From positions 5,034,903-5,098,902 of the forward strand of contig NZ_CP017634.1 in assembly GCF_002777255.1 (NCBI RefSeq): DNA of 64,000 nucleotides, read 5' to 3'. This document shows, one piece after another, positions 20,019 to 47,595 of this stretch; positions within the stretch are counted from its first letter, which is position 1, and each line of letters begins with the position of its first letter. A program made the translations under genes and the position numbers. This DNA comes from Candidatus Formimonas warabiya. Lineage in GTDB: Bacteria; Bacillota; Dehalobacteriia; Dehalobacteriales; Dehalobacteriaceae. The notes under the pieces were generated by a model. That model saw only the letters and a program-made list of their open reading frames with translations. It was not told where the DNA came from and made no database searches.

Positions 20019-21776
20019 ATGCTTGACCCGACCCAATTTAAAGACTGGCAGATTGCTGAAGAAGCGGAAAAGACTATGCTTTCCCCGGAACAGTGGCAAG
20101 AAAAACTTGGTTTGGAAAAGGGTGAGATGATTCCTTTCGGAAAGACGCCCAAACTTGATTTTATCAAAATTATGGACAGACTGAAAGACCGCCCGGACGG
20201 AAACTTCGTCGAGGTTACCGCGATTACGCCGACTCCCTTAGGAGAAGGAAAATCGACTACATCATTGGGCCTAATTGAAGGATTGGGTAAGAGAGGAATG
20301 AATGTGGGCGGCTGCCTGCGCCAGCCTTCCGGCGGACCTACCATGAATGTGAAAGGAACCGCTGCCGGCGGCGGCAATGCGCTGCTGATTCCCATGACGG
20401 AATTTTCTTTGGGCCTCACGGGCGATATTAATGATATTATGAATGCCCACAACCTGGCGATGGTTGCTCTCAATGCCAGAATGCAGCATGAAGCGAATTA
20501 TAGTGACGCCGAATTAGCGAAAAGGAATTTAAAAAGACTGGATATTGATCCCAAAAACGTAGAAATGGGCTGGATTATCGACTTTTGTGCCCAAGGACTG
20601 AGAAACATCATGATCGGACTGGGCGGCAAAAAAGACGGCTTTACCATGCAGTCTAAATTTGGCATTGCCGTTAGTTCCGAGTTAATGGCTATTCTTGCTG
20701 TGGCCAGAGATTTGAAGGATTTACGGGAAAGAATTGCCGACATGATCGTTGCTTACGATAAGTACGGCAATCCTGTTACCACGGCTGATTTGGAAGTAGA
20801 CGGCGCTATGGCCGCCTTCATGCGCAATACCATTAATCCTACCCTGTGCTATACGGTTGAGCATCAGCCTGTACTCGTTCATGCCGGTCCTTTTGCCAAT
20901 ATTGCCATTGGCCAGTCTTCCATTATCGGGGACCGGGTAGGCTTGAAAATGTTTGATTACCATATTACAGAGAGCGGATTTGCTGCCGACATCGGATTTG
21001 AAAAATTCTGGAATGTCAAATGCCGCTTAAGCGGATTGACCCCGAATGTTTCCGTGCTGGTCTGTACCGTGCGTGCCCTCAAGATGCATGGAGGCGGCCC
21101 TACCGTAGTTCCCGGTCGTCCCTTGCCGGAGGCCTATACCAAACAGGATTTAGGCCTGGTAGAAAAAGGCTTGGAGAACTTGCTCCACCACTTGAAGAAC
21201 GTGAAGAAATCCGGGATCAATCCGGTGGTTTGTATTAACAGCTTTGCTACCGATACCAAGGAAGAGGTGGCACTGATTAAAAGAGCCGTGGAGCAAGCCG
21301 GCGGACGCTGCGCCGTTTCCGAACACTGGAGATACGGCGGCGACGGAGCTCTTGAGCTTGCCGATGCAGTTATTGACGCTTGTAAGGATCCGGTTAATTT
21401 CAAATGTCTCTATCCCATCGAAATGCCCTTAAGACAGCGGGTGGAAATAGTTGCCAAAGAAGTATACGGTGCGGACGGTGTTGATTGGGCTCCGGAAGCG
21501 GAAGCAAAAGCCAAGAGATTTGAATCTGATCCCAAGTATGCCGATTTCCAAACCATGATGGTGAAGACCCATCTCAGCTTGACCCATGATCCTACTCTGA
21601 AAGGTGTGCCGAAAAACTGGAGATTGCCCATCCGTGACGTACTTGTCTACGGCGGCGCCAAGTTCCTTTGCCCGATGGCCGGCACGATCAGCTTGATGCC
21701 GGGAACCGGTTCCGATCCGGCCTTCAGAAGAATTGATATTGACGTGAATACCGGAAAAGTAAGCGGGTTATTCTAA
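20019..21776 (+). CDS. fhs: formate-tetrahydrofolate ligase
   Basis: A 585-residue enzyme that activates formate with ATP and tetrahydrofolate to give 10-formyl-THF, the entry step of the methyl branch of the Wood-Ljungdahl pathway (or, in reverse, the ATP-yielding step of methyl oxidation). The P-loop-like [17 protein letters not shown] lies near residues 68-84, then [26 protein letters not shown] and the C-terminal [17 protein letters not shown] precedes ATG 20019. It is slightly longer than the usual 556-560 residues at the N-terminus. It stands alone with its own terminator, just upstream of pylD, and links the methyltransferase genes to one-carbon metabolism. Confidence 0.98.
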
Positions 21777-21917: not shown

Positions 21918-22035
21918 TTTTTATATTTCCAAATGTTTTTGTGATAAAAATAAAGGATTTTTTCTGGTTTTGTACAAATACCTTAGGAGAGAAAATAATC
22001 GCTGATTTTTTATTTTGGCAAGAGGGAGAAAAAAC

Positions 22036-22848
22036 ATGACACGGCTTACTGTAAAAGACATTGATGGGCTTGATCAGGGGTTTTCCGCCTATGATAGGGA
22101 ACTAATTGAAAAGACCGGTATGACCTTAGGTGAAATTGCCTGTTTTTCCGCAGGAATTTCCCCCCAAGAGTTTCAGGAAGCAGGGGAAGATTACCGGGTT
22201 GCCGTCGTGCCGATCACAGCCGGCGAAGGGATCATTGGCGGATTCGCCCAGTCTGTGCAAGGGATCGTAGCCAGTTTAGGGTTTCAAGTATCGGTAACCC
22301 GGGAGACGGATGTGGACGGCATCTTTGAGGCGGTGTCTTCCGGCAGTGAAATCATTTTTATGGCGGATGATGTGCGCTTTATCGCCATAAATTTACACAA
22401 CAAAAGAATAGCAGATAATGGGGAAGCCACCGGCAGGGGCTATGTGGCTGCTCTGAACGGAATGGCAAAAGACCTGAACGGGTGCGAAGTATTGGTTTTA
22501 GGGTTTGGTCAAGTGGGTTCCCCGGCGGTAGAATTTCTTTTGGAGTTGGGAGCCAAACCCGCTGTTTATGATATTGACGAGGAAAAATTACATCACATAG
22601 ATAAAAATAAGGTTCAAGTGGAAAAGGATTTAAGGGCAGCGTTGCCTAAATATCACTATCTTATCGACGCTACACCGGAAAACAGTTTTATCGCCCCGGA
22701 GCTATTAGACGGGAAGGCAAAAATTGCTGCCCCGGGAATTCCCCTGGGACTTACTCCGGAAGCATATGGGAAATTTAAGGGCGCAACCATCCATGATCCT
22801 TTACAAATCGGAGTAGCAGCGATGCTGGCTTTGGCAGTAAAGCCTTAA
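22036..22848 (+). CDS. pylD: pyrrolysine biosynthesis protein PylD
   Basis: A 270-residue dehydrogenase that oxidises 3-methylornithyl-N6-lysine; the product cyclises to pyrrolysine. It shows the PylD plan: N-terminal substrate domain with VVPITAGEGIIGGFAQSV, then FMADDVRFIAINL (the conserved ADD segment) and a Rossmann domain with VLGFGQVG at residues 154-161. The end, HDPLQIGVAAMLALAVK, is also family-like. ATG 22036 follows AGAGGGAG; the longer TTG start is unlikely. tRNA-Pyl starts 8 nt after the stop, so both are probably on one transcript. pylB, pylC and pylS are not in the window, unlike the compact clusters of many bacteria. Confidence 0.93.
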   Translation: MTRLTVKDIDGLDQGFSAYDRELIEKTGMTLGEIACFSAGISPQEFQEAGEDYRVAVVPITAGEGIIGGFAQSVQGIVASLGFQVSVTRETDVDGIFEAVSSGSEIIFMADDVRFIAINLHNKRIADNGEATGRGYVAALNGMAKDLNGCEVLVLGFGQVGSPAVEFLLELGAKPAVYDIDEEKLHHIDKNKVQVEKDLRAALPKYHYLIDATPENSFIAPELLDGKAKIAAPGIPLGLTPEAYGKFKGATIHDPLQIGVAAMLALAVKP

Positions 22849-22856
22849 ATAAACGT

Positions 22857-22928
22857 GGGGGGTGGATCGGCAGGATCGCATAGACTCTAAATCTATGTAG
22901 CCGGGTGTAACTCCCGGACTCCCCGCCA
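22857..22928 (+). tRNA. pylT: tRNA-Pyl (anticodon CUA)
   Basis: A 72-nt tRNA that folds by eye with tRNA-Pyl hallmarks. These are a 7-bp acceptor stem (GGGGGGT with ACTCCCC), one base between acceptor and D stem, a 4-bp D stem with a 5-nt loop and a 6-bp anticodon stem (CATAGA with TCTATG). The loop is CTCTAAA, with anticodon CTA at 22887-22889; the variable loop is only 3 nt, and the T stem is CCGGG/CCCGG. Discriminator G and an encoded CCA end the gene. It decodes UAG as pyrrolysine. It sits directly after pylD, and amber-containing mtbB and mttB lie 4-7 kb downstream. Confidence 0.97.
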
Positions 22929-23012
22929 TACCTGAAAATGATTTGTTTTATCGTGCCTTGAGACTGTTTTGACGGGTTCTGTCCAGGTTAAGCGGAGCAA
23001 GGAGTGGATAAA

Positions 23013-24767
23013 ATGATTAAGCTTGCAGATATTTCTCATGACGATTTTTTTCTTTTGCCCTCCGGGGCAAAAGTGGCCGATGTTCTGGAAGATATTTTAG
23101 ATCATCACACCCAATATATCATTCGCTGCTCAGAGAAAGAAGTTGGCGCAGTCTACCGGACATCTGTTTTATTGCGGGAAGCTCTGAAAAACGGCTCCGG
23201 TTCCCTGGGGGAAAATATCCTGGTCAGTGAGAGATTTGCCGTGATTCAGGAGGGGGATTCTCTCCTGGATTTATTGGCTTTGGAGGATCATCCTGATTTG
23301 ATTGTTCTGGTCAATGAGGGAACAGTTCCCGTGGGGATGATTGACGGGTTGGAGGCAATTCGGAAACTGCTCCATGATTTTTATGGGATGATACCCGGGA
23401 CAAAACTTTCTTTGCCGGAATACCGGGATATTGTGGAGCAACTGGAAGAAGAGATATTCGTTACCGATGGTGCCGGATTTATTTTATATCTGAACCCGGA
23501 AGGGGAAAAAGTTTGCGGCGTGAAACTGGAAGAGGTGATTGGAAAGCACGTCAGCGATTTGGAAAAGGCCAAGATTTTTACGTCCAGTACCACCGTTGAG
23601 GTGCTTAAAACCAAGAAGAAGGCCAATTTACTGCAAAAGCTGAAGTCCGGAAAAACGGTTTTGGCCACGGGCAGACCCATTTTTGATCAGAAAGGCCGGC
23701 TCGTCCGGGTTTTAAGTACCACGAAAGATGTCAGAGAGATCAATCATTTAATGGAACAGATTGAACAAAAGAACAAAGAGATTAAGCACAAAAACCAGGA
23801 GCTGACTTTGTTGCGGGAAAGTATTTTTGCCCAAGACAACTTTGTGTGCAAAAGCCCTAAAATGACAGGAATTAAAGATACCATCATCAAAATTGCCCCG
23901 ACGGATATCACTGTCCTGATTCAGGGAGAATCAGGCGTGGGAAAAGAAGTGGTGACAAAATTAATTCACAATTTAGGCCTGAGAAACAGGTACCCTTTGA
24001 TCAAGATCAATTGTGGCTTAATTCCGGAAAATTTGTTGGAATCCGAATTATTCGGTTATGAGGGCGGGGCTTTTACCGGGGCGAATAAACATGGGAAATT
24101 AGGGAAAATCGAATTAGCCAACCAGGGAACCTTATTTCTCGATGAAATTGGCGAGATGCCCTTAAGTCTCCAGGTGAAGCTGTTGGAGTTTTTGCAGGAC
24201 AGAGAGTTTACCCGGGTGGGAGGCACGCAAAAGATAAAAATTGATACCCGGGTGATTTTAGCCACCAACCGGGATTTGCAGACGATGGTCAATCAAGGCC
24301 GCTTCCGCCGGGATCTTTTTTACCGCCTCAATGTCCTGCCCATCAACATTCCTCCTTTAAGGGAGAGAGTGGAGGATATTCCGGTGCTGGCGGAATATTT
24401 CCTGGATCAATTCAACAACAAGTATCAAATGAATAAAAAGTTGGCCCCGGACGTGATCGAAGCATTTTATGAGTATGATTGGCCGGGCAATGTCAGGGAA
24501 TTGGTCCATTTTATTGAGAGAATCATGGTGATCAGTGATGCGGATTTCATTACCCGGGACATGTTGCCGGAAGTGTTCGGGGGAAATCCGTCTCCCCGCC
24601 AGACCATTATCTGCACCGACCTGATTCCTTTGAAAAAAGCGAAAAATGAATTGGAGGCCCAGCTCATCAAACGGGCTTACGAGATCTATAAATCTACCTA
24701 TAAAGTAGGAAAGGTATTAGAGATCGACCAGTCCACGGTGGTGAAACTGCTTAAAAAATATAGATAA
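23013..24767 (+). CDS. sigma-54-dependent transcriptional activator (CBS-like, PAS, AAA+, HTH)
   Basis: A 584-residue enhancer-binding protein. Residues 1-120 resemble a CBS pair; 135-240 form a PAS domain (IFVTDGAGFILYLNPEGE); a coiled linker follows. The AAA+ domain has Walker A GESGVGKE at 305-312, the sigma-54 contact loop GAFTGA at 352-357 and Walker B TLFLDEIGEM at 373-382. A short C-terminal HTH (about 540-580, KVGKVLEIDQSTVVKLLKKY) resembles TyrR-type HTH domains. ATG 23013 is chosen because AAGGAG lies 8 nt upstream; GTG 23004 overlaps that site. Two sigma-54 promoters with matching inverted-repeat arrays follow at 25146 and 26998, so it probably switches on the adjacent methyltransferase genes in response to a small ligand. 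Confidence 0.93.
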   Translation: MIKLADISHDDFFLLPSGAKVADVLEDILDHHTQYIIRCSEKEVGAVYRTSVLLREALKNGSGSLGENILVSERFAVIQEGDSLLDLLALEDHPDLIVLVNEGTVPVGMIDGLEAIRKLLHDFYGMIPGTKLSLPEYRDIVEQLEEEIFVTDGAGFILYLNPEGEKVCGVKLEEVIGKHVSDLEKAKIFTSSTTVEVLKTKKKANLLQKLKSGKTVLATGRPIFDQKGRLVRVLSTTKDVREINHLMEQIEQKNKEIKHKNQELTLLRESIFAQDNFVCKSPKMTGIKDTIIKIAPTDITVLIQGESGVGKEVVTKLIHNLGLRNRYPLIKINCGLIPENLLESELFGYEGGAFTGANKHGKLGKIELANQGTLFLDEIGEMPLSLQVKLLEFLQDREFTRVGGTQKIKIDTRVILATNRDLQTMVNQGRFRRDLFYRLNVLPINIPPLRERVEDIPVLAEYFLDQFNNKYQMNKKLAPDVIEAFYEYDWPGNVRELVHFIERIMVISDADFITRDMLPEVFGGNPSPRQTIICTDLIPLKKAKNELEAQLIKRAYEIYKSTYKVGKVLEIDQSTVVKLLKKYR

Positions 24768-25145: not shown

Positions 25146-25162
25146 TTGGCATATTTTTTGCT
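25146..25162 (+). promoter_or_regulatory. sigma-54 promoter A
   Basis: TTGGCATATTTTTTGCT matches the -24/-12 consensus (YTGGCAC-N5-TTGCW) with correct GG-to-GC spacing. It lies 171 nt upstream of the MttB-homologue gene, with transcription expected near 25174. Confidence 0.75.
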
Positions 25163-25332: not shown

Positions 25333-26814
25333 ATGAAAAGAAGTGAAAAATCCGGCATTGAGATCGGCACGGGGTTTGGCTTGAAGTCTTTTTCCCCGGA
25401 CCAAGTAGAGATGCTTCATGATGCTACATTAAAGGTGCTCCAAGATACGGGAATCAAAGTAGAAAGCGATGCGGCGGCGGAAATATTTTCCGGGGCCGGT
25501 GCGCAGGTAGAGCGCTTTTCCAATTATTTTACCGTGAGAATCCCTTCCTATATTGTGGAAGACTGCATCCGCTGGGCGGCCCGTCCGGGAATTTTTTACG
25601 GCCGGGTTCCGGAAGATGACTTTCTTGCGGAGCCCCATCGGGTTGGGTTTGCCACCTTTGGTGAATGTATTCAAGTGATCGACCCCGTGACCAGAAGGGT
25701 GAGGAAGTCTACCAAAAAAGACTGCGGGGATATCTCCCTGATTTGCGACTATTTTGACGAGATCAGCGTCATGGAACGGCCTTGCTGCTCCTCGGATATG
25801 CATCCGGAGACACAGCCCCTGCACAATTTGGAAGCCATTTTTACCAATACTTCCAAACCGGTGTTTCTCGCCGCTGTGAACCCGCGCAATTGCAGAAAAA
25901 TGGTGGAGATGGCGATCGTCTGTGCCGGAGGAAAGGAAAACTTCCATAAACGTCCCTTCCTAAATATTTTTGTTTGTCCTACCAGCCCCTTGCTTTTAGT
26001 GAAAAATTGCTGCGATGTGATTATAGAAGCGGCCGGATTAGGGGCGGGCATTGCTATTATTCCCATGGCTTTAGCCGGCGCCACGTCGACAGCGACTTTG
26101 GCCGGGACCATCGTCACCCACAATGCGGAAGTATTAAGTGCTCTTGCCTTGGCCCAGCTGACGAAAAAAGGCTGCCGTTGTGTTTATTGCGGTGTGAGCA
26201 CGATTATGGATCTCCGGCTCATGGTGGGCCCGGTAGGTGCTCCGGAACAGGCTTTATTGGCTTCCGGGGCCGCAAAACTGGCCCAATATTATCGATTACC
26301 CAGTTGGATCGGCGGCGGTGTGTCGGACAGTAAACTGCCTGATGCCCAAGCAGCTTATGAGTTTGCCCTTAACGCTTTAACCGGCGCTTTGGCCGGAGCG
26401 AACATTGTCTATGGCGCAGGTGTGCTGGAATTAGGCCTGACCCAAGATTATGCCAAGCTGGTGCTGGACGTGGAAGCCATCCGGTCCATCAAAAGAATCA
26501 TGAAAGGCGTGGAAATTACCGATGAGACCCTGGCCTTGGATGTGATCCATCAGGTTGGTGCCGGCGGAGAGTTTCTCACCCACGCGCATACCTTTCAGCA
26601 TATGCGGGAACAGTCCCAACCGGCCCTTTTTGACCGGAAGACCCGGGATTCCTGGCTGAAAAGCGGAGGAAAAGATGCTGCGGAACGGGCTTACGAAGAG
26701 GCCTTACATATTTTGGAGAACCATCGGCCCAAGGTCCTACCTCCGGGGGCAGCCGGTATCATGAAAGAAATTATTGCTGATTATGAAAAAGAACTTGGTG
26801 TGGCCGGAAAATAA
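25333..26814 (+). CDS. MttB-family corrinoid methyltransferase without pyrrolysine
   Basis: A 493-residue TIM-barrel methyltransferase of the trimethylamine/betaine superfamily. It is the closest relative in the window of the Pyl-containing MttB at 29462, sharing stretches such as VTHNAEVL and DSKxPDAQAA. At the pyrrolysine position (residue 330, codon 26320) it has Val, so it should use a quaternary amine or another substrate rather than trimethylamine; this is known for MtgB-type homologues. GGCGGAGG precedes ATG 25333. It sits behind sigma-54 promoter A and ahead of promoter B, implying joint control with mtbB-mttB. The methyl acceptor is probably the corrinoid protein at 28622. Confidence 0.88.
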   Translation: MKRSEKSGIEIGTGFGLKSFSPDQVEMLHDATLKVLQDTGIKVESDAAAEIFSGAGAQVERFSNYFTVRIPSYIVEDCIRWAARPGIFYGRVPEDDFLAEPHRVGFATFGECIQVIDPVTRRVRKSTKKDCGDISLICDYFDEISVMERPCCSSDMHPETQPLHNLEAIFTNTSKPVFLAAVNPRNCRKMVEMAIVCAGGKENFHKRPFLNIFVCPTSPLLLVKNCCDVIIEAAGLGAGIAIIPMALAGATSTATLAGTIVTHNAEVLSALALAQLTKKGCRCVYCGVSTIMDLRLMVGPVGAPEQALLASGAAKLAQYYRLPSWIGGGVSDSKLPDAQAAYEFALNALTGALAGANIVYGAGVLELGLTQDYAKLVLDVEAIRSIKRIMKGVEITDETLALDVIHQVGAGGEFLTHAHTFQHMREQSQPALFDRKTRDSWLKSGGKDAAERAYEEALHILENHRPKVLPPGAAGIMKEIIADYEKELGVAGK

Positions 26815-27196: not shown

Positions 27197-28591
27197 TTGG
27201 ATAAGTTTTTTACCAGGATGGGGGATGGTTCCGCGGTCTGGATGAGCGAGGAAGACATTCGCTGGGACTTGGAAGAGGGCATGAAAGATGCGGCAGACCG
27301 GGGCAAAATTCCTGAGCTGACCGATGATGAAATGCAACAATTATTTGAAATAGTCACCCATCCCTTAAAGAATGTAAGCTGTGCCCGGGGAAATGAGGCC
27401 GTGGTCACCTTTGATGCCGGAACCTTAAAGCTGCCTGTGCGGGCAGGGCTTCCCATGGACCGGATGACCACCATTCTCACCCATGAAAGGGCCTTATGCT
27501 CGGATACCATGGAGCTTTGCACCACGGACTACAGTTATAAATCGATTAAGAATTTTGTTCATGAAGAAGCCATGTCTATGGAACTGGCCCAATTAAACAG
27601 CATCATCCCGCTGTTTTACGGCGCCATGCCCAATCTGGGCCAGTACACAAAACCGGATGGCCCCATTGATAACTGGTCGGAACTTTTACCGATGGCAAAA
27701 ATTGCTGAAGCACGGGCCGCGCAAGAGGAAGCGATTGAACATGCGGTGCGGGATATGGTCTTTATTGCCAGCGCCCTTTACGAAGAAGGCGGGGCAGACG
27801 GCATCAACTTTGACACGGTAGGCGCGTCAGGAGACGGAGATGTTCTGGCTACGCTCAAAGCAGCCCAAATCCTCAAGGGAAAATATCCGGAAATACCCAT
27901 TGAAATCGGCATGTCCGGAGAATTTGTCTTGGGGATGCACGGCCAGTTGGCTTTTGACGGTACCAGATTGGCGGGGCTTTATCCCCACCAGCAGGTCAAG
28001 GTTTGTGAAAAGGCCGGCGCCACCATCTTTGGTTGTGTGATCAATACCAACAGCAGCATGTCCTTTGCCTGGAATCTGGCCCGAACGGTCACCTTTACCA
28101 AAGCCTGCGTAGAAGCGGCCAGCATTCCGGTTCACGTGAATGCCGGGATGGGTGTGGGCGGGGTGCCCTTGACCAATACTTCTCCCACCGATGCTACGTC
28201 CCGGGCCTCAAAGGCCATTATTGAAATCGGCAAGGCGGACGGGTTGTAGATTGGTCATGGCGATGCCTACGGGATGGCCGTGATGCATGAGGTGACCACA
28301 GGCATGGGCGGAATACGTACTGCCGGAGATCTGGTAGCACGGATGCAGATGCTGAAGGGCATGAAATTGAAGGATGCGAAAGAATATGTAGCAGGGAAAC
28401 TAGGGGTTGACCTGTTCGATCTTTCCGATTCCTATGTGATGAAAGAGCTGAGGGAACAGCTGGATATCGGCACTGTGCTGGACCGGGCCAACGCTTCTTT
28501 TGGTATGGAAGCCAAGTTCAACATCGCCCGGGTCCTGGATATTCCCATCAATTCGGTAAATAAATTTAAACGAAAAGTTGGCATGGTATAA
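27197..28591 (+). CDS. mtbB: dimethylamine methyltransferase MtbB with in-frame amber (pyrrolysine)
   Basis: The gene reads 350 codons, meets TAG at 28247-28249, and continues in frame for 113 more codons to TAA, giving 464 residues, the usual MtbB length (about 467). The sequence before the amber, GKADGL, and after it, IGHGDAYGM, fits the MtbB active site, where pyrrolysine (residue 351) binds the amine. It transfers a methyl group from dimethylamine to a corrinoid protein. Other landmarks are IPLFYGAMPN, GINFDTVGASGDGD and HVNAGMGVGGVPL. Start TTG 27197 follows AAAGGAGG. It is the first gene after sigma-54 promoter B; the corrinoid partner gene follows at 28622. Automated annotation would split it in two. 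Confidence 0.95.
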
Positions 28592-28621: not shown

Positions 28622-29266
28622 ATGAGTCGTGAAGCTTTGATTCAAGAAGCCATTGATACTATTCTGAAATATGACAAGGAGCGGGCGGTGCAGATCGCCC
28701 GGCAAGTACTTTCCGAGGGGCTGGATCCGGTGGATATTCTGACCAACGGATTCAGTGTGGGCATCCGGCAGGTGGGAGATCTTTTCGGCCGGGGCGAGGT
28801 TTTTCTTCCCGAACTGATGCTCTCCGCGGATGTGATGAAATCTGTCACCGGTGCCTTCGAAGGTGCCATGGACGGCAAGGCGGCCCAGAAAAAGGGGAAG
28901 ATGATTTTTGCCACCGTGGAAGGAGACGTCCATGACATTGGTAAAGGGATTGTGATCTCTCTCATTAAGACCCAAGGAATAGAGATCATTGACTTAGGCC
29001 GGGATGTTCCGGTAAGCAAAATTATTGAGAAGGCGGTAGAGGTCGATGCGGATTTAATCGGCACCAGCGCTTTGTTAACCACCACTTTGGTGGAACAAAA
29101 GAAATTGGAAGAGGAGCTTAAGAAGCATGGCCTGCGCAATAAGTTTAAGACCATGGTCGGGGGAGCCCCGGCTACCCAGCGCTGGGCGGACCGGATCGGC
29201 GCCGATGCCTATGGAGAAGATGCGGCCGATGCCGTGAACAAAGCCCTGGCATTATTAAACGAATAA
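28622..29266 (+). CDS. mtbC: methylamine corrinoid protein
   Basis: A 214-residue B12-binding protein with an N-terminal helical cap (about 1-85) and a Rossmann-like cobalamin domain. The signature GDVHDIGKG lies at residues 101-109, with H104 as the lower cobalt ligand, followed by IGTSALLTTTL and MVGGAPATQ. It receives methyl groups from MtbB and/or MttB; whether it is strictly MtbC or MttC cannot be decided, and it is the only corrinoid protein in this operon. GGAGG lies a few bases before the ATG. It lies 30 nt downstream of mtbB and about 200 nt before mttB; the gap contains a relic of an MtgA-like gene. Confidence 0.92.
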   Translation: MSREALIQEAIDTILKYDKERAVQIARQVLSEGLDPVDILTNGFSVGIRQVGDLFGRGEVFLPELMLSADVMKSVTGAFEGAMDGKAAQKKGKMIFATVEGDVHDIGKGIVISLIKTQGIEIIDLGRDVPVSKIIEKAVEVDADLIGTSALLTTTLVEQKKLEEELKKHGLRNKFKTMVGGAPATQRWADRIGADAYGEDAADAVNKALALLNE

Positions 29267-29415: not shown

Positions 29416-29461
29416 TTGTGGTAAGAGATCAAACCGGATCATTCTTTTGGAGGTGAAAGGA

Positions 29462-30937
29462 GTGTCACGAAATTTACACGCAGGATTTCATCGCATCGAC
29501 GGTTTTGGCATCAATGTTTTTTCCCGGGACGAATTGTATGCCGTCCACTGCGCTACTTTGGATGTGCTGCAGCATGTGGGAGTAAGAGTGGACAGCAAAG
29601 AAGCCCAGGAAATTTTCGCCGGCGGGGGAGCTACGGTGGACCCTCAGACCGACATTGTGAAAATACCTCCCTACATGGTGGAAGATGCGCTGCGTTGGGC
29701 TCCCGGCACCTTGCTGCTGGCGGCCCGGGACCCGAAAAAGGATTATATTTTGGAGAGCAACCGGGTGGGATTTGTCAATTTCGGTGAAGGGGTCAATATC
29801 ATCGATCCTGTGACCCGAAAGTACCGGCCTACCAACAAAAGGGATGTGGCCAACGCCGCCTTGATGAGCGACTATTTATCGGAAATGGATATTTCCTATC
29901 GGGCCGTGGTAGCCCAGGATCAACCGGGGCATGTGCAGTCCCTCCATAATGCGGAAGCCATTTTTCCCAATACCGCCAAACACTTTTTCATCGGCGCGGA
30001 CGGTGTGAAAAACGCCCGGAAGCTGATTAAGATGGGGGCGGCCCTAGCCGGCGGTAAGGATAAATTAAAAGAAAGACCCCTGATCAGTTTCAACGTCTGC
30101 CCCACCAGCCTTTTAAAACTAATCCCCGAGTGTACGGATGTGGTCATGGAAGCTGCCCGGGCCGGGATTCCTGTGAATATTATTTCCATGGCCATGGCCG
30201 GAGCCACCTCTCCCGTAACCCTGGCAGGAACTTTAGTGACCCATAATGCGGAAGTGCTGGCAACCATCGTACTCAGCCAGTTCACATGCAAGGGCGCTCC
30301 CTGTATTTACGGAAGCTCTACGACGATCATGGATATGCGGTATACCACCGCACCCGTAGGGGCGCCGGAACTGGGCATGATTAGCGCGGCGGTGGCCAAA
30401 ATGGCTCAATATTACTTGCTGCCTAGTTTTGTCGCGGGCGGGTAGGCGGACAGTAAAGTGCCTGACGCTCAAGCAGCTCATGAAAAAACCCTCACCGGTC
30501 TTTTGGCTGCCCAGGGTGGCGCCAACCTGATCTATGGGGCCGGGATGCTGGAGCTGGGAATTACTTTTGACTTTGCCCAATTTGTTATGGACAACGAGAT
30601 CTTTAAAATGATCAGAAAAGCTGTGGGCGGCATCCGCGTCACCGATGCCGACATGGCGGTGGATATCATCAAGGAGATCGGACCCGGCGGAGAATTCATC
30701 AGCCATGCCCATACCTTCGAGAACTTTAGAAAAGAGCAGTCCCAAAGCAGATTAATTGACCGCACCATGCGTGATACCTGGTTGCTCAGCGGAGGAAGGG
30801 ACCTAACGGAGAGAGCCTATGAAGAGGCCAATCATATCCTGAATACGCACAAGGTGGCCCCTTTGGCTCCCGGGACCGAAGGTACGATCCGGTCTATTGT
30901 GGAAGAGGCGGAGGAGGAGTACGGAATAAAAAGGTGA
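29462..30937 (+). CDS. mttB: trimethylamine methyltransferase MttB with in-frame amber (pyrrolysine)
   Basis: The coding frame runs to TAG at 30443-30445 and then continues without break to TGA 30937, 491 residues in all. The amber (residue 328) lies in PSFVAGG[12 protein letters not shown]. The non-Pyl paralogue at 25333 has PSWIGGG-Val-SDSKLPDAQ, so alignment proves that the two halves are one gene. MttB moves a methyl group from trimethylamine to its corrinoid protein. GTG 29462 is preferred over TTG 29447 because GGAGG lies 8 nt upstream of it. It is the last gene of the promoter B operon. The 158 nt up to the next BCCT gene contain no obvious strong terminator. Confidence 0.96.
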
Positions 30938-36137: not shown

Positions 36138-36770
36138 ATGGCAAATTATGAAGACTTGTCAAAACAGGTAATTGCGGGTAATCAAGCCAAAGTAAAAGAG
36201 CTGACCCAAAGCCTGGTTGATGGAGGGGACGCTCCCCTTGAAATTATCAATCAAGGCCTGATTGCCGGGATGAACGTAGTTGGTGCCCGTTTCAAAAACG
36301 GGGAAATGTTTGTTCCTGAAGTACTAATGGCTGCTAAATCCATGGCTGCCGGGATCGAAATTGTCAAACCCTTGATCGCAGCCGAAGATATGCCTTCCAT
36401 TGGAAAGGTGCTGTTAGGTACCGTGAAAGGTGACCTGCATGACATAGGCAAGAACCTGGTAGGGATGATGTTGGAAAGCGGCGGGTTTACCGTCATTAAT
36501 ATGGGCATCGATATTTCTCCGGAACAGTTTGTGGCAGCGATAAAAGAATACAAACCGGATGTTTTGGCGATGTCGGCTTTGCTTACCACGACCATGCTGC
36601 ACATGAAAGACACCATTGAGTTAATGAAAGAAGAAGGCCTGGCAGACAAAGTAAAAGTCATCGTTGGTGGGGCACCTATCTCTCAGGACTTTGCGGATGA
36701 AGTCGGCGCCGACGGTTTTGCCCCTGATGCCGCATCTGCAGTGGATCTGTGCAAAAAGCTTTTAAGCTAA
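36138..36770 (+). CDS. corrinoid protein 1 of duplicated pair
   Basis: A 210-residue cobalamin-binding methyl carrier. The helical cap is followed by VKGDLHDIGKNLVGMMLESGGF with His101 as cobalt ligand, then MSALLTTTMLHMKDTI and VGGAPISQDFADEVGAD. It is roughly 90% identical to the protein at 38305, a recent duplication. It stands 31 nt before the MttB homologue at 36802, which presumably methylates it. The start ATG follows a GGGGGA stretch. It is only distantly similar to the methylamine corrinoid protein at 28622, indicating a different partner enzyme. Confidence 0.93.
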   Translation: MANYEDLSKQVIAGNQAKVKELTQSLVDGGDAPLEIINQGLIAGMNVVGARFKNGEMFVPEVLMAAKSMAAGIEIVKPLIAAEDMPSIGKVLLGTVKGDLHDIGKNLVGMMLESGGFTVINMGIDISPEQFVAAIKEYKPDVLAMSALLTTTMLHMKDTIELMKEEGLADKVKVIVGGAPISQDFADEVGADGFAPDAASAVDLCKKLLS

Positions 36771-36801
36771 AGTTTTGAAAGAAAGAAAGGAGAGAAGACA
36801 G

Positions 36802-38259
36802 TTGTATACAACAAAAAGTAATTATTCTCGGGCCAATTATGAGGTAAACCAAACCACATTATGGAAAATGCTCAGTGAAGACCAGTGTGAACAAATTGTC
36901 ATGACTGCGTTAGAAGTTCTGGAAAGGACGGGCGCAGAAGTATTAAACAAAGAAGCATTAGAGATATTTGAAAAAGGTGGCTGCTGGGTAGACGGAAACA
37001 GAGTGCGCATTCCTTCCTCCTTATCCGAGTGGGCGGTGCGGACGGCTCCCTCCAGAGTAACGCTCTGTGACAGAAACGGCAAACGGGCTTTAAGTTTAGA
37101 AACAACCAATGCCTATTATGGACCGGGACAAGACAATGTGAACATCGTTGATCCCATGACGGGGGAATTGAGAAAACCGGTAAAAGCCGACGTTGCTACG
37201 ACCGGATTACTATGTGACGGATTAAAGAACATAGATTTTGCCATGAGCAATGGCCTGCCCACAGACGTCGATGCAAATGCGGCCGAAGTACATGCCTTCG
37301 AAGCATTGGTCACCAATACCACCAAACCGATCATACAAAGCGTGAAAAATGTCAAACAAGCCCAAGCCATTGTGGACATTGCCAGTGCAGTGGCAGGGGA
37401 TCTAAGAGAACTGCAAAAGAAACCTTTCGTAGCCCTCTATTTCGGCACAGAAGGCACCCTAATTCATTCTGAAGAAACCTTAGCCAAAGTAATCTTTGCC
37501 GCCAAGAACGGCATACCCTTTGTGTATGCCACCAAATTAATCGCCGGGGATACCGCTCCCGCCACTTCAGCCGGAGCGATCGTCGTTGCTCTTGCCGATG
37601 TATTGGTAGGTATTCTGCTTAGCCAGTTAGTGCGCCAAGGTGCTCCCGTAATTGCCGGCGGTTTCTTCACCATCAATGACACGGCGAACGGCATCCTTCC
37701 CCAGGGAGCGCCGGAAGTAAGCCTGATGGGAACAGGAATGAGCAACGTGCTTCGTTATCTCCGCATCCCCAGTTTCGGCTTTGCCGGTGCTACCGATGCC
37801 AAACACAGCGATGCCCAGATGGGATTAGAATCCGCCTTCTCCGTCCTCCATGCCGGTATGTGCGGCACCAACCTCATTCACGGCTGCGGTCAGATGGAAT
37901 ACGGCTTGACCGGTTCCCTGGAACTGCTTGTCATGAACATAGAAGCCATCGGCATGACCCGCCGGATCATGAAAGGCGTAGAAGTCAACGAAGAAAGATT
38001 ATCCCGGGGCGTCATTGATGCGGTTCAGCCTGGGGGACATTACCTAGGAGAAGAACATACCCTCAAATTCTTCAAATCCGAATTCTGGTGGCCCGCCTTA
38101 ATGAACAGAAACCGGATTGACGACTGGACAGCCATGGGAGCCAAATCCATGGGACAGCGCGTCAAAGAAAAGGCCCAAAGCATCATCAAAAACCATCAAC
38201 CCGAAAAATTAGCTGAAGAAACACTGGCCAAAATCAAAGCCATTGTAGACAAAGCATAA
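36802..38259 (+). CDS. MttB-family methyltransferase without pyrrolysine (Ala at Pyl site)
   Basis: A 485-residue member of the MttB superfamily. The segment matching the pyrrolysine loop reads SFGFAGATDAKHSDAQ, with Ala at residue 330 where MttB has pyrrolysine, so it belongs with MtgB-like enzymes that demethylate betaines or other methylated compounds. Substrate is unknown. The TTG start at 36802 is preferred because AAAGGAG lies about 8 nt upstream and the downstream paralogue also starts with TTG after AAAGGAG. It is co-transcribed with the corrinoid genes on both sides (45 nt to the next). Confidence 0.88.
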   Translation: MYTTKSNYSRANYEVNQTTLWKMLSEDQCEQIVMTALEVLERTGAEVLNKEALEIFEKGGCWVDGNRVRIPSSLSEWAVRTAPSRVTLCDRNGKRALSLETTNAYYGPGQDNVNIVDPMTGELRKPVKADVATTGLLCDGLKNIDFAMSNGLPTDVDANAAEVHAFEALVTNTTKPIIQSVKNVKQAQAIVDIASAVAGDLRELQKKPFVALYFGTEGTLIHSEETLAKVIFAAKNGIPFVYATKLIAGDTAPATSAGAIVVALADVLVGILLSQLVRQGAPVIAGGFFTINDTANGILPQGAPEVSLMGTGMSNVLRYLRIPSFGFAGATDAKHSDAQMGLESAFSVLHAGMCGTNLIHGCGQMEYGLTGSLELLVMNIEAIGMTRRIMKGVEVNEERLSRGVIDAVQPGGHYLGEEHTLKFFKSEFWWPALMNRNRIDDWTAMGAKSMGQRVKEKAQSIIKNHQPEKLAEETLAKIKAIVDKA

Positions 38260-38304
38260 TTGGATAAAGAAAGAAAAAGCGTTTGATAGGGAGGTAAATA
38301 TAAA

Positions 38305-38937
38305 ATGGCAAATTTCGAAGAACTGTCCAAATACGTGATCGCAGGAAATCAGGCAAAAGTAAAAGAACTGACCCAAGGCCTGGTCAATGAAGGAGTCGCT
38401 CCTTTAGATATCATCAACCAGGGACTCATTGCCGGCATGACCATAGTCGGTGCCCGCTTCAAAAACGGTGAAATGTTTGTTCCTGAAGTATTAATGGCAG
38501 CCAAATCCATGGGTGCCGGCATTGAACTGGTCAAACCCCTCATCGCGGCCGAAGATATGCCTTCCATCGGCAAAGTACTGCTGGGTACTGTCAAAGGCGA
38601 CCTGCATGACATTGGTAAAAACCTGGTCGGCATGATGCTGGAAAGCGGCGGATTTACCGTGATCAATGTAGGAATCGATATTTCACCGGAACAATTTGTC
38701 AAATACATCAAAGAACACAACCCGGATGTATTAGCCATGTCCGCATTGCTGACCACCACCATGCTGCACATGAAAGACACCATCGAATTAATGAGAGAAG
38801 AAGGATTGCGCGATAAAGTAAAAGTCATCGTCGGGGGAGCCCCCATCTCCCAAGATTTTGCAGACGAAGTCGGCGCCGACGGTTTTGCTCCTGATGCCGC
38901 TTCCGCAGTAGACCTGTGCAAAAAGTTATTAAGCTAA
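38305..38937 (+). CDS. corrinoid protein 2 of duplicated pair
   Basis: A 210-residue near-copy of the corrinoid protein at 36138, identical in the cobalamin site GDLHDIGKNLVGMML and in the C-terminal half except for a few substitutions (for example KYIKEHNPD for AAIKEYKPD). GGGAGG precedes the ATG. It is paired with the MttB homologue at 38969, so each methyltransferase has its own carrier. The high identity despite divergent partner enzymes suggests gene conversion or shared acceptor use. Confidence 0.93.
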   Translation: MANFEELSKYVIAGNQAKVKELTQGLVNEGVAPLDIINQGLIAGMTIVGARFKNGEMFVPEVLMAAKSMGAGIELVKPLIAAEDMPSIGKVLLGTVKGDLHDIGKNLVGMMLESGGFTVINVGIDISPEQFVKYIKEHNPDVLAMSALLTTTMLHMKDTIELMREEGLRDKVKVIVGGAPISQDFADEVGADGFAPDAASAVDLCKKLLS

Positions 38938-38968
38938 ATTTCTGTAGTAAAGAAAGGAGAGAAAAAAG

Positions 38969-40435
38969 TTGACAACGCGAACGAATTTCAAAGCTTATGC
39001 CAGTTCCATGATGAACGTATTCTCACCTGCCCAGTGCCAAGAATTAGTATGGGCTGCTGAAGAGGCCATGTGGCGAACGGGGACAGATTTTTATGATAAA
39101 GAATCCTTAGAAATCATGAAAAAAGCCGGCTGCTGGGTAGACGGCAAACGGGTTAGAATTCCTGCCCACATCACCGAGGCAGCCTTAAGATCCTGCCAAA
39201 AACACGTCGTCTTATGCAACAGCCGTACCGGCGCCCGGGAACTCTTCGTAGAAGGCAACAACTCCTACTTCGGTTCCGGTCCCTGCACGCCGTTCACGAG
39301 AAACCCCTTCACCGGGGAAAGACACCGGGCGACCAGACAATCGGTAGGCTGGGCCACCAAAGTATTAGACGCGCTGCCCAACATCGACTATGCCATGTCC
39401 CTGGGGATTGTACAGGACGTACCCCTATTAATATCCGACCGGCACGAATTTGAACAACAGATACTTCATACCGAAAAACCCATCATCACCGTATGTGTAG
39501 ACCAGTGGGGCCAGGAAGACTGCATCAAAATGGCGGAAATCGTCGCCGGCGGCGAAGAAGAACTGCGCCGGAATCCCTTCATCTGCTTATATGCCGAACC
39601 AATTTCCCCCGGCATGCACTGCCGGGAAGCTGCCCAGAAACTAGTCATGGGCGCGAAAAAAGGACTGCCCACCATTTACACCCCATGCATCATGGCTGGC
39701 GGTACAGCTCCTGCCACCATGGCCGGTGTAATGGTCCAAGGACTATGTGAAAGCTTAAGCGGTCTCGTACTCAGCCAGTGCACCCGGGAAGGCGCTCCCT
39801 TCATCATGGGTGGTGTATACACCATTCTTGACATGGGATCCACCATCTTCTCCTACGGGGCACCGGAACTGCACCTGCTCCTGGCCGGACTGGCCGATGT
39901 AGCCCACTATCTGCAGATTCCCATGTTTGGCACGGCAGGGTGCACCGACTCCTGCATCATCGACGAGCAGGCCGGTATCGAAGCCGCCCTATCCATAGCC
40001 ATGACCAACATGTCCGGAGCCAACCTCAACCATGACACCGGATATTCCGAATACGGCACCACCTCCAATCTGGACCTGGTTGTTGTCGCTGACGAGGTTC
40101 TGGGTATGGCCAGAAGGTTAACCAAAGGGATCCGGGTAGACGATGAAACCCTGGCCCTGGATATCATTGAAAAAGTAGGACCGGGCGGTAAATTCGGCGC
40201 TGAAGAGCATACCCAAAACCACATGGAAGAAAATTATGTACCGCGCTTAGTGAACCGGGCTGCCCGGGACATCTTTGAACAAGCCGGAGGCAAGACCTTG
40301 ACCCAAGTAGCCAACGAAAAAGTCCGGGACATCATTAACTACCATGAACCGGCTCCGCTGCCCAAAGAGATCGCGGCGAAGATTAGAGACATCGTGGAAA
40401 ATGCTGTCGGCCATATGCCGGGAGAAGATGAGTAA
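38969..40435 (+). CDS. MttB-family methyltransferase without pyrrolysine (Cys at Pyl site)
   Basis: A 488-residue MttB-superfamily protein, distant from its upstream neighbour. The loop at the pyrrolysine position reads MFGTAGCTDSCIIDEQ, placing Cys325 at that site and replacing the usual Lys of DAK/DSK with Cys, so two cysteines (325 and 328) face the presumed active site. This is unusual within the window and may mean a different chemistry or a bound metal. TTG 38969 follows AAAGGAG. It is the last gene of the four-gene corrinoid/MttB unit, followed by strong hairpins. Confidence 0.86.
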   Translation: MTTRTNFKAYASSMMNVFSPAQCQELVWAAEEAMWRTGTDFYDKESLEIMKKAGCWVDGKRVRIPAHITEAALRSCQKHVVLCNSRTGARELFVEGNNSYFGSGPCTPFTRNPFTGERHRATRQSVGWATKVLDALPNIDYAMSLGIVQDVPLLISDRHEFEQQILHTEKPIITVCVDQWGQEDCIKMAEIVAGGEEELRRNPFICLYAEPISPGMHCREAAQKLVMGAKKGLPTIYTPCIMAGGTAPATMAGVMVQGLCESLSGLVLSQCTREGAPFIMGGVYTILDMGSTIFSYGAPELHLLLAGLADVAHYLQIPMFGTAGCTDSCIIDEQAGIEAALSIAMTNMSGANLNHDTGYSEYGTTSNLDLVVVADEVLGMARRLTKGIRVDDETLALDIIEKVGPGGKFGAEEHTQNHMEENYVPRLVNRAARDIFEQAGGKTLTQVANEKVRDIINYHEPAPLPKEIAAKIRDIVENAVGHMPGEDE

Positions 40436-40445
40436 AACAAAAATA

Positions 40446-40525
40446 GGCTGCCTGTTTGTACAGGCGGCCCTTTGAAACAAGTGCAAAATTCAGGTGGGGG
40501 TTTTTGACCCACCTGAATTTTGACA
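40446..40525 (+). terminator. double hairpin terminator
   Basis: GGCTGCCTG with CAGGCGGCC (40446-40470) is followed by a 14-bp perfect stem, AAAATTCAGGTGGG (40485-40498) with CCCACCTGAATTTT (40508-40521). It ends the corrinoid/MttB operon. Confidence 0.85.
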
Positions 40526-40563
40526 CATTTCGTAATTTCATCGAGGTTTGAGGGGGAAGGACA

Positions 40564-42570
40564 ATGTCACTAGTACTTGGTATAGATACTGGAGGTACTT
40601 ACACCGACGGTGTCGTGGTGGAGCTAAAAAGCAAAGAGATCTTAAAAAAGGCCAAGGCTTTAACCACCCGAGAAGATTTGTCCGTCGGCATCCGTAACTG
40701 TATCAATAATTTGGAATTTGAAGAATTTAACAAAATTAGTGTGGTATCTCTTTCAACAACGTTAGCGACCAATGCCATCGTGGAGGGCCGTGGGTGTGAA
40801 GTCGGACTGCTCATGATCGGACATGAACCTATTTCTAAGCTCCCTATCGAGCATTTTTCGGTACTGCCCGGCGGACATGATATTAAAGGCCGACCTCTCA
40901 GTGACCTCGACCTTGAACTGACCCGTAAGGCAATTAGTGAATTTAGGGGCAAAGTAGATGCCATTGCCATCTCCGGATATTTAAGCGTGCGAAACCCGGA
41001 ACATGAAATCAAGGTAAGAGAAATGGTGCGGGAAATTCTGGACCTGCCTGTGGTATGTGCGCACCAGCTTACGACATCTTTAGGGTTTCATGAGAGGACT
41101 GTCACCGCGGTTCTTAACGCCCGGTTAATTCCCATTATCGCGGAGTTGATTGAATCCGTCCAACAGGTGCTGGAAGAAAGACAAATTGAGGCTTCTGTCA
41201 TGATTGTCAAAGGAGACGGCTGTTTAATGAGCGAGTCTCTGGCCCGGGAGAAGCCCATTGAAACCATTCTCTCCGGACCGGCCGCCAGCATTATCGGCGG
41301 GACTTTTTTGACCCAAACTCCGGAGGCTCTGGTGCTGGATATGGGGGGAACTACCACGGATATTGCCATTTTAAAGAATGGCGTGCCCCGGATCAACCAG
41401 GAAGGGGCGATGGTGGGCGGATGGCTTACCAGGGTTCTGGCTGCAGAAATTTATACCTACGGACTGGGCGGAGACAGTTATATCCAGTTGACCAAGGACA
41501 GGGGTATTGCGGTGGGTCCCCAGAGGGTTTGGCCCCTTTGTGTCGTGGCCTATCGGCATCCTTCCCTGGTGGAGGAATTAAAGGTAAGCTTTGAAAAAGA
41601 TTATGATCTGATGTTTGCTCAAGCCACCGACTGTTTTATGTTTTTAAGACATGCTACGGCAGAGAAACTTACCGATCTGGAGGAAAAAGTAATTTCCATT
41701 CTTCAGGATGGTCCCCGAAGCCTTTATTACCTTGCCCAAAGGCTGGAAATTGACCCTAACCTGTTCAATCTGCAGCATCTGGTAAACCTGGGGGTTGTGG
41801 CCAGAATATCGGTTACACCCACGGACATCCTTCATGCGAAAGGGACTTACGACCAGTGGAACAGGGAAGCAGCCCAAGTCGGTGTGGAAATTCTTGCCCG
41901 AAGAATGGGCGTAACACCACAAGAGTTTATTGATATGGCTTCCGAGACCATTGTCAACGATCTTTGCCTCACCTGCCTGCAGAGCTTAGTGGGCTGTGAG
42001 GGGGAAAGCATGTGGCTGAAGAAAAATGATGACGTGATGTATTTGATTAAAAAGGCCTTGTCTCCTGCCAAAAATCAGGTATTTGACTGTTCCTTTAAGG
42101 TAAAAATGCCTGTAGTGGGAATTGGGGCACCGGTACGCGCCTGGCTTCCTAAGATGGCAGAAAAATTAAACACCGAGCTGGTGATTCCTGAGCATGCGGA
42201 AGTGGCTAATGCAGTAGGCGCGGCCACCGGGAGAATTATGGAGACCGTCAAAGTGCTGATTAAACCGGGAGAAGCCGGCAGTGGATATCTCTTGCATACC
42301 TCTTGGGAGCGAAGACCCTTTGAAGAGCTGGAAGAGGCAGTAGAATATGCCTTGGATGAGGCTAAGAAAAGGGCAGTTCTGGCGGCGGAAAAAGCGGGCG
42401 CCAAGAATTATGAGCTGGTTGTCAACCATGAAGACGTTTATGCCAATGCCAGCATGATTGAAAATGATATTTATGTGGAATCACGGATAGAGGTAACGGC
42501 AGTAGGGCGACCTGAATGGGAAAGGGAAGAGGAAAAAGAGAAATTTTTTGTCGACACCATTGGTTGTTGA
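40564..42570 (+). CDS. hydantoinase/oxoprolinase (HyuA)-family ATPase
   Basis: A 668-residue protein of the ASKHA-fold HyuA family. It has the N-terminal phosphate loop LVLGIDTGGTYTDGVVVE, the second loop VLDMGGTTTDIAILKNG near residue 259, and LSGPAASIIGGT. Known relatives split hydantoins or 5-oxoproline with ATP or carboxylate ketones with a second subunit; no hyuB-like subunit is present. A region around residues 360-440 resembles a winged helix (ISILQDGPRSLYYLAQRLEI), unusual for HyuA. It stands alone between terminators, within the methyltransferase region. It could process an N-methylated ring compound or help activate a methyltransferase; neither is shown. Confidence 0.8.
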   Translation: MSLVLGIDTGGTYTDGVVVELKSKEILKKAKALTTREDLSVGIRNCINNLEFEEFNKISVVSLSTTLATNAIVEGRGCEVGLLMIGHEPISKLPIEHFSVLPGGHDIKGRPLSDLDLELTRKAISEFRGKVDAIAISGYLSVRNPEHEIKVREMVREILDLPVVCAHQLTTSLGFHERTVTAVLNARLIPIIAELIESVQQVLEERQIEASVMIVKGDGCLMSESLAREKPIETILSGPAASIIGGTFLTQTPEALVLDMGGTTTDIAILKNGVPRINQEGAMVGGWLTRVLAAEIYTYGLGGDSYIQLTKDRGIAVGPQRVWPLCVVAYRHPSLVEELKVSFEKDYDLMFAQATDCFMFLRHATAEKLTDLEEKVISILQDGPRSLYYLAQRLEIDPNLFNLQHLVNLGVVARISVTPTDILHAKGTYDQWNREAAQVGVEILARRMGVTPQEFIDMASETIVNDLCLTCLQSLVGCEGESMWLKKNDDVMYLIKKALSPAKNQVFDCSFKVKMPVVGIGAPVRAWLPKMAEKLNTELVIPEHAEVANAVGAATGRIMETVKVLIKPGEAGSGYLLHTSWERRPFEELEEAVEYALDEAKKRAVLAAEKAGAKNYELVVNHEDVYANASMIENDIYVESRIEVTAVGRPEWEREEEKEKFFVDTIGC

Positions 42571-42581
42571 AGCAAGGTCTT

Positions 42582-42614
42582 AACTTGCTAAGTGATTTTC
42601 TTAGCAAGTTTTGG
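42582..42614 (+). terminator. terminator of the HyuA-like gene
   Basis: AACTTGCTAAG (42582-42592) and CTTAGCAAGTT (42600-42610), an 11-bp perfect stem, then TT. Confidence 0.85.
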
Positions 42615-42618
42615 AACT

Positions 42619-42698
42619 GCAAATGCATGACTTAATTGGCGTTGGACTCCCGAGGCGGGAGACTTACGCCAAGTTAGTCAGGTAAAAACTGTATTTGC
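42619..42698. repeat. 80-nt nested palindrome
   Basis: Nested arms: GCAAAT/ATTTGC outermost, then TGACTTAATTGGCGT with ACGCCAAGTTAGTCA (two mismatches), then CTCCCG/CGGGAG at the tip. It is an intergenic cruciform-capable element before the MtgA-like gene; only one copy is seen in the window. Confidence 0.65.
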
Positions 42699-42787
42699 CC
42701 TAAACTGTTCTTAGTGGCATAATAAATGATCATAAGGGATCTATCAAAGACAAAAGAGAATAATGGTTACGAGGAGGATATCTTAGC

Positions 42788-43585
42788 ATGTTAATAGTGG
42801 GAGAATTGATTAATACCAGCCGGAAAGCGATCAAACCTGCGGTAGAAGCCAGAGACGCCGCTTTTATCAAAGATATGGCCCAGAAACAGGTGGATGCCGG
42901 CGCCGATTATGTCGACGTAAACTGCGGTACTATGGTTTTCAACGAAGAAGAAACCATGGCCTGGTTAGTGGAAACTGTGCAGTCCCAGGTGACCGCACCG
43001 CTCTGTATCGACAGTCCCAACCCCAAAGCTTTGGAAGTAGGGCTTTCTTTATGCAAACACGGCCAGCCCATGATTAATTCCATCACCGCGGAAAAAGAAC
43101 GTTATGCTACCATCCTGCCCTTTGTCTTAAAATATAAAGCCAAAATCGTCGGTCTGTGCATGGATGACTCCGGAATGCCGGAAACTGCGGAAGACCGCTT
43201 AAGAATTGCCGACAGGCTGGTGGGCGACATGGTTGCCGCCGGGGTACCGGAAGACGACATCTATCTGGATCCCCTAGTGAAGCCGGTAAGCACGGGAGAC
43301 AAAGCCGGTTTGGAAGTCCTGGACACCATTTACGGGATCAAGCAGAAATACCCCAAGGTCCACGGCATCTGCGGCTTGAGCAACATTTCCTACGGTTTGC
43401 CCAACCGGAAAATCTTGAACCAGGTCTTCATGATCCAAACCATGACCATGGGCATGGACGGCTACATTCTGGACCCATTGGATAAGACCATGATGGGATT
43501 TGTATATGCGTCCCAGGCTCTCTTGGGCAAAGACGAATTCTGCATGAAATATTTGACGGCACACAGGAACGGATTGTACGAATAA
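42788..43585 (+). CDS. mtgA: methylcorrinoid:tetrahydrofolate methyltransferase (MtgA-like)
   Basis: A 265-residue pterin-binding TIM barrel of the MtrH/MtgA type. It has LIVGELINTSRKAI, then DAGADYVDVNCGT, LCIDSPNPKALE, and DPLVKPVSTGD and GLSNISYGLPNRK, which form the pterin pocket seen in methyltetrahydrofolate methyltransferases. It would take methyl groups from methylated corrinoid proteins and give methyl-THF, feeding the Wood-Ljungdahl pathway. Its partner MtgB-like gene starts 40 nt downstream. A relic of a second copy lies at 29281. This is the only intact candidate for that step in the window, so it may serve several corrinoid proteins. GAGGAGG precedes the ATG. Confidence 0.92.
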   Translation: MLIVGELINTSRKAIKPAVEARDAAFIKDMAQKQVDAGADYVDVNCGTMVFNEEETMAWLVETVQSQVTAPLCIDSPNPKALEVGLSLCKHGQPMINSITAEKERYATILPFVLKYKAKIVGLCMDDSGMPETAEDRLRIADRLVGDMVAAGVPEDDIYLDPLVKPVSTGDKAGLEVLDTIYGIKQKYPKVHGICGLSNISYGLPNRKILNQVFMIQTMTMGMDGYILDPLDKTMMGFVYASQALLGKDEFCMKYLTAHRNGLYE

Positions 43586-43624
43586 AAAGTTTGCTTCTAA
43601 AAAGATCTTAGGAGGTGCGGCTGG

Positions 43625-45040: not shown

Positions 45041-45070
45041 CGGTCTGAACAGAACGAGCCATAGCAAGGT

Positions 45071-45170
45071 AGTGGGAAGTTGCCCTAGTGAAGAGAGCTT
45101 ATTACGATACTTCCCACTGCTTTACTTTTGAGTCAGTTTTAACTTAAAAAAGTTTTTCTTTGACTCAAAA
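45071..45170 (+). terminator. tandem hairpins after the mtgB-like gene
   Basis: AGTGGGAAGT (45071-45080) pairs with ACTTCCCACT (45109-45118), followed by T-rich sequence. A second stem, TTTTGAGTCA with TGACTCAAAA (45126-45170), follows. The first is a good terminator. Confidence 0.75.
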
Positions 45171-45315
45171 AATAAGAGGATAATGAATTATTATGACGAA
45201 TATTAAATACCAAAGAAAAACTTATAAAATCAACTGTTAAACTTTGTAAATATCCAGTAAAAAACTTTGAGTATTTCAGAGTGGACATGCTTCAACTGAT
45301 TAACCTTGTTACGTA

Positions 45316-45640: not shown

Positions 45641-45694
45641 CTGCGGGAAATAAACCATATCCTGAGGTATCCTAAAATGAAGGGGGATCTTTTA

Positions 45695-47317: not shown

Positions 47318-47340
47318 GACCAACCGATTTAAACTGTAGA

Positions 47341-47384
47341 AAAAAAGGACTGTTTGGGAATTTTCCTAAACAGTCCTTTTTTTG
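47341..47384 (+). terminator. terminator of BCCT gene 1
   Basis: AAAGGACTGTTTGGG pairs with CCTAAACAGTCCTTT around a short T-rich loop and ends in seven Ts. Confidence 0.92.
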
Positions 47385-47595
47385 GATAGATAAAAAAATA
47401 AGTCGAAAAGGACTTAAAATAATCCTGATCGGCACAAGGATTATTCATTTTTATGACGAATAGATTAAATATTAAAAAACCAAAAAAATCCAAATGAAAA
47501 ACCAAAAAAATCCAGTAGTATGATCTTTAGAATACTAATAAAAGACACTACGTAAACATAACATAAGCAGTCGAGAAGATTACTTAACAGCGATA

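Follow-up and report, generated by a model that had tools for sequence, protein, structure and literature searches.

An in-frame amber codon almost certainly read as pyrrolysine in an mttB gene of 'Candidatus Formimonas warabiya' DCMF

The trimethylamine:corrinoid methyltransferase gene mttB described here contains an internal "stop" codon, a TAG, that is almost certainly read as pyrrolysine (Pyl), the rare 22nd amino acid for which UAG is known to stand in many bacteria and methanogens. The best explanation of the data, to which we give a probability of ca. 0.96, is that DCMF encodes here a genuine bacterial Pyl-MttB in which UAG 328 would be decoded as pyrrolysine and which would act on trimethylamine. 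The DCMF genome is 6,441,270 bp long and occurs as one contig; unless given as genome positions, coordinates refer to the window, that is the whole stretch of 64,000 nucleotides that was analysed.

29462..30937, plus strand: mttB (Pyl form), trimethylamine:corrinoid methyltransferase, 491 aa with the TAG read through (TIGR02369, PF06253, PDB 7xcm)
30443..30445, plus strand: in-frame TAG, predicted pyrrolysine 328, equivalent to Pyl334 of M. barkeri (sequence, alignments)
29449..29453, plus strand: Shine-Dalgarno GGAGG of mttB (sequence)

The initial annotation had proposed that the TAG at 30443 breaks an otherwise continuous MttB frame and that the downstream half belongs to the same protein, and both propositions are borne out. 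The frame begins at GTG 29462, from which the TAG (30443-30445) is codon 328 and the only internal stop, and ends at TGA 30935-30937. When read through, the 491-aa product matched TIGR02369 over its full length in a profile search (model positions 2-469), with 724 bits for an equivalog cutoff of 525, and Pfam MTTB (PF06253) also matches it. Past the TAG, the frame stays open for 163 codons, which was equalled in 2 of 5000 base shuffles, while the other two frames contain 6 and 9 stops. Purifying selection is equally strong on both sides of the TAG, with dN/dS values of 0.064 before it and 0.051 after it when compared to the closest paralogue of the same genome (87% identical, at 3.577 Mb), a comparison in which synonymous sites are near saturation.

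The alignment with archaeal MttB that had been suggested as a check places codon 328 on Pyl334 of the M. barkeri enzyme without a gap (PDB 7xcm, E=5e-121), and the two proteins are collinear over residues 3-486 with Pyl at the same column (PDB 7xcm, 7xcl and 7xcn). The partners of Pyl334 in M. barkeri MttB, Gly110, Met249 and Tyr364 (PMC9842639), are present in the DCMF product as Gly108, Met243 and Tyr358, whereas Glu109 stands in place of Thr111 of M. barkeri, a replacement common to most bacterial homologues examined. In the DCMF genome, TAG occupies the Pyl column in 13/13 amber-containing MttB paralogues and no other stop occurs in any of them. The same situation was found in all of the best 80 of 170 confirmed relatives from other bacterial genomes, retrieved with an alignment of Pyl genes as query, which leans to the Pyl clade although TAG was not demanded. 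Overall, TAG is found at this column in 93/93 amber-containing homologues (13 from DCMF and these 80), with Tyr358 kept in 91, Met243 in 91 and Gly108 in 86. The amber relatives belong to Bacillota, Thermodesulfobacteriota, Chloroflexota, Actinomycetota, Synergistota and other phyla; the Pyl-MttB of Paradesulfitobacterium ferrireducens (L096), Desulfosporosinus spp. and Acididesulfobacillus acetoxydans (L100) are 60-68% identical to that of DCMF and have TAG at the same codon. The non-Pyl glycine betaine methyltransferases (MtgB) have the fold and PF06253 in common with this MttB but are 31-32% identical to it, and in the three MtgB-like proteins of the window the Pyl column is occupied by Ala, Cys or Leu. 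This sequence anatomy and this conservation of mttB are direct observations. They agree with the initial placement of pyrrolysine at position 328, which is supported by the Pyl334 column, by the TAG of all 93 amber homologues, by the selection acting past the TAG and by the genomic Pyl set described below.

20019..21776, plus strand: formate-tetrahydrofolate (THF) ligase, neighbour of pylD (NF010032, 1083.7 bits)
22015..22848, plus strand: pylD, the only copy of the genome, directly 3' of the formate-THF ligase gene (TIGR03911, 250.8 bits, cutoff 150)
22857..22928, plus strand: tRNA-Pyl with anticodon CTA, directly after pylD (ARAGORN)

The tRNA-Pyl gene and pylD sit 6.5 kb upstream of mttB, and a complete predicted set for Pyl synthesis and decoding is encoded in the genome, where it is composed of three pylT, one pylSc, one pylSn, four pylB, two pylC plus an internally deleted one, and one pylD. 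These genes are spread over five loci, with pylSc at 6.2386 Mb and with pylB, pylC, pylSn and another tRNA-Pyl clustered near 6.24 Mb. The pylB copies start at genome positions 3579151, 1662128, 6239333 and 6279616, and the pylC lacking its middle part lies at 1661652-1662077; occurring beside Pyl-methyltransferase genes, the four pylB and the gapped pylC appear to be what is left of cassettes that were duplicated or acquired. The three tRNA-Pyl genes (22857-22928; L057, 8333-8404; L058, 11259-11330) all fold and differ from one another at 6 to 13 of 72 positions. That of the window, in which the anticodon stem shows paired changes, is identical to the Acididesulfobacillus tRNA at 66/72 positions, compared to 61 and 59 for its own siblings.

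Split or duplicated pyl arrangements are known in archaea. Bacterial pyl genes are described as forming one cluster in general (PMC3941956). In A. acetoxydans (L100), pylT, pylB, pylC and pylSn occur in one stretch where the matched contig shows them, whereas the pyl genes of DCMF are dispersed. In Dehalobacterium formicoaceticum, pylD is located ca. 2.5 Mb by coordinate from a pylT-Sc-B-C-Sn cluster. The linkage of pylD to a formate-THF ligase gene was also detected in two relatives (L185 and L186), and thus in three members of the family in all where pylD was found. One relative with a fragmented assembly (G003, contig C212) has a strong pylD match, with no PylSc over the cutoff and no tRNA-Pyl match.

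23004..24767, plus strand: PAS-domain sigma-54 activator, candidate regulator of the operon (PF00158, PF00989)
25147..25162, plus strand: candidate sigma-54 promoter, TGGCAT-N5-TTGCT, a consensus match in the gap before the MttB(Val) gene, upstream of the operon
25333..26814, plus strand: paralogue of MttB whose Pyl column carries Val (GTG 26320-26322) (alignment, tree)
27197..28591, plus strand: mtbB, dimethylamine methyltransferase, second Pyl gene (TIGR02368, 535 bits with the TAG read through)
28622..29266, plus strand: cognate corrinoid protein, MttC/MtbC type (TIGR02370, 225.5 bits, cutoff 215.3)

The genes are arranged in the order pylD, pylT, sigma-54 activator, MttB(Val), MtbB(Pyl), corrinoid protein, MttB(Pyl) and BCCT transporter. 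The TAG of mtbB is located at 28247-28249, with an Rfam PYLIS_2 match at 28247, and no PDB sequence matching the MtbB protein at E<=0.001 was found. For the activator, the best NCBIfam match is PrdR, below cutoff. Because the sigma-54 consensus is expected to match ca. once by chance in the window (0.85 matches), the one found at 25147 is suggestive only and rests on its position; a sigma-54 control of the operon by the upstream activator may be envisaged, more tentatively than the decoding of the amber codon. On the 3' side of mttB, the BCCT transporter gene is followed by that of a GABA-transaminase-like enzyme and then by the published glycine-betaine demethylation cluster, Ga0180325_114734-114742, which the window genes from 36138 onward (36138-49691) match in length and order. 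This cluster includes a 668-aa protein of unknown role (40564-42570). The window also contains an IS110-family RNA-guided transposase on the minus strand (2738-4033; NF033542, 209.8 bits).

In a sample of 464 kb composed of the window and of twenty 20-kb stretches of the genome, TAG ends 61 of 312 selected ORFs, two being the Pyl genes of the window, and thus ca. 19% of genes. A global reassignment of TAG was rejected on this ground and because the distance to the next in-frame stop shows no difference from that of genes ending in TAA or TGA (p = 0.26). An apparent long read-through of 383 codons (L188, 7017) corresponds to two unrelated adjacent genes encoding POR-domain and ATP-grasp/CoA-ligase proteins. 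Three Pyl-MttB genes themselves terminate at TAG and are followed 4 to 9 codons later by a second stop. TAG therefore has two meanings in the genome; given this ambiguity, termination probably occurs to some extent at 328.

30443..30542, plus strand: Rfam PYLIS_3 match, 82 bits

This ordinary use of TAG, together with the ample redundancy offered by the 83 MttB-family stretches of the genome, could speak for a real stop, resulting from a nonsense mutation in a decaying paralogue and leaving a non-functional fragment of 327 residues. We give this almost no credence, given that purifying selection is equally strong in the downstream half, that 93 homologues belonging to several phyla all have their TAG at this very codon and nowhere else in frame, and that a dedicated amber-decoding tRNA is encoded nearby. 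It is just as hard to credit that termination at 30445 is followed by re-initiation at an internal start to yield two subunits: an ORF of 159 aa starting at GTG 30458 does exist mechanically, but such a split would cut the TIM barrel at an active-site residue, and the homologues vary around the site while the TAG column stays fixed without a gap. Pyrrolysine may also be inserted into an enzyme whose substrate is another methylated amine, imported for instance by the adjacent BCCT transporter. The genes lying 3' of mttB and the diversity of the 13 Pyl-MttBs of the genome point in that direction, as does the suggestion of Holland et al. that the Pyl-MttBs of DCMF may have a novel role (PMC9768040); this is nonetheless unlikely when set against the 724 bits obtained on a trimethylamine equivalog model, the retention of Tyr358 and Met243, and the presence in the same operon of genes for a dimethylamine methyltransferase of Pyl type and for a corrinoid protein.

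A further proposition, that Pyl insertion in mttB is directed by a conserved RNA signal (PYLIS) located 3' of the TAG, draws on the PYLIS_3 match and on a slightly higher conservation at the synonymous sites that surround the TAG (ratio 1.09, 10/5000 permutations, 67 sequences), seen for an interval chosen after the profile had been inspected. When corrected for scanning, however, this conservation is not significant in the same 67 sequences (63/300). PYLIS_3 is also above cutoff at many sense-codon paralogues, including the Val gene (26320-26419), so that what it detects is conserved coding sequence, and it does not serve to diagnose Pyl insertion; membership as a PYLIS element (Rfam RF02510) was not specific to amber genes. 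The most conserved synonymous site of Pyl-MttB genes is codon +24 after the TAG, where the conserved Ala is encoded by GCA in 45 of 57, but the present copy departs from the most conserved synonymous codons at +23/+24 and the GCA preference is absent from it. PYLIS was accordingly rejected as independent evidence for Pyl, and a directing role in mttB appears very unlikely.

The neighbouring paralogue had been reported to align gap-free across the stop with Val at this place, and the gene at 25333-26814 indeed shows no gap there and has GTG 26320-26322 at the same column. Its designation as a non-Pyl paralogue holds with respect to this Val, but it is no ordinary non-Pyl relative: it lies inside the Pyl clade and has kept the catalytic Tyr and Met. 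Three TAG-less genes (25333-26814, L022 and L024) are above the TIGR02369 cutoff, with Val (GTG), Leu (TTA) or Trp (TGG) at the site, and all are placed inside the Pyl clade in a tree of 110 sequences. Constraining the Pyl genes to one clade was rejected (p-AU 0.0007), in a test that involves long branches and a group named after the tree had been seen. Independently of the tree, Met243 and Tyr358 are both retained in the Val and Leu genes; in the Trp gene, Met243 is retained and residue 358 is Phe. In the other sense-codon members that were checked, position 358 is occupied by His and position 243 by Glu, Ala or Gly. Because the three genes are nested in the Pyl clade and active-site residues are kept, loss of Pyl is the simplest reading, and the Val paralogue has probably lost it.

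Holland et al. (2019) counted 96 methylamine methyltransferase genes in DCMF, among them 82 mttB and 23 genes containing Pyl, and mended fragmented genes by hand (PMC6778437). Our counts are 83 MttB-family stretches and 20 amber genes, 13 mttB and 7 mtbB; the remainder of the published 23 may be mtmB. One MttB-like gene (genome 475814-477062), possibly a pseudogene, is broken by a frame break and a TGA. By gene order, the locus should correspond to about Ga0180325_114729-114730, just before the cluster 114734-114742. The finding of a Pyl amber codon is thus correct and concerns a known kind of gene, Pyl genes having already been counted in the published genome. Seven Pyl-MttBs of DCMF were detected by metaproteomics in cultures whose growth substrate was dichloromethane or glycine betaine rather than trimethylamine, and the present copy is absent from the seven listed proteins; the same text reports the use of choline, glycine betaine, methanol and dichloromethane (PMC9768040). 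In the literature, as far as its main texts go, we found neither a reported peptide across residue 328 of this copy nor a report of growth of DCMF on trimethylamine. Likewise, the main texts on DCMF were not found to mention the scatter of pyl genes over five places, the three divergent tRNA-Pyl, the linkage of pylD with formate-THF ligase, the apparent secondary Pyl loss (Val/Leu/Trp), the ca. 19% of TAG stops or the non-diagnostic PYLIS.

From established knowledge of the family, we infer how Pyl would be charged and inserted in mttB and that trimethylamine would be the substrate. Pyrrolysine would be made by PylB, PylC and PylD, charged by the split PylSn/PylSc synthetase onto tRNA-Pyl(CUA) and inserted at UAG 328. 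Assisted by Tyr358 (Tyr364 in M. barkeri), the Pyl imine would capture trimethylamine in the active site. The corrinoid protein whose gene lies just upstream would then receive the methyl group, which would continue toward tetrahydrofolate and the Wood-Ljungdahl pathway. Transfer to tetrahydrofolate is what is expected for a bacterial MttB, the acceptor being coenzyme M in M. barkeri.

At the scale of the genome, we somewhat favour a picture in which a single PylSc/PylSn and a single PylD would serve three divergent tRNA-Pyl and 20 amber methyltransferase genes, with pyl genes in five loci and pylD tied to formate-THF ligase, and in which Pyl would have been lost secondarily three times (Val, Leu and Trp), the rest of the trimethylamine active site being kept in at least two cases. 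The case shows that raw sequence allows Pyl genes to be recognised, and it confirms that the genetic code is expanded at this locus. Of further use are the Pyl-to-sense paralogues, as well as a pyl gene set that is dispersed and in part duplicated in a bacterium where TAG still serves as an ordinary stop. If they are true Pyl losses, the Val, Leu and Trp paralogues would represent natural experiments on MttB function without Pyl.
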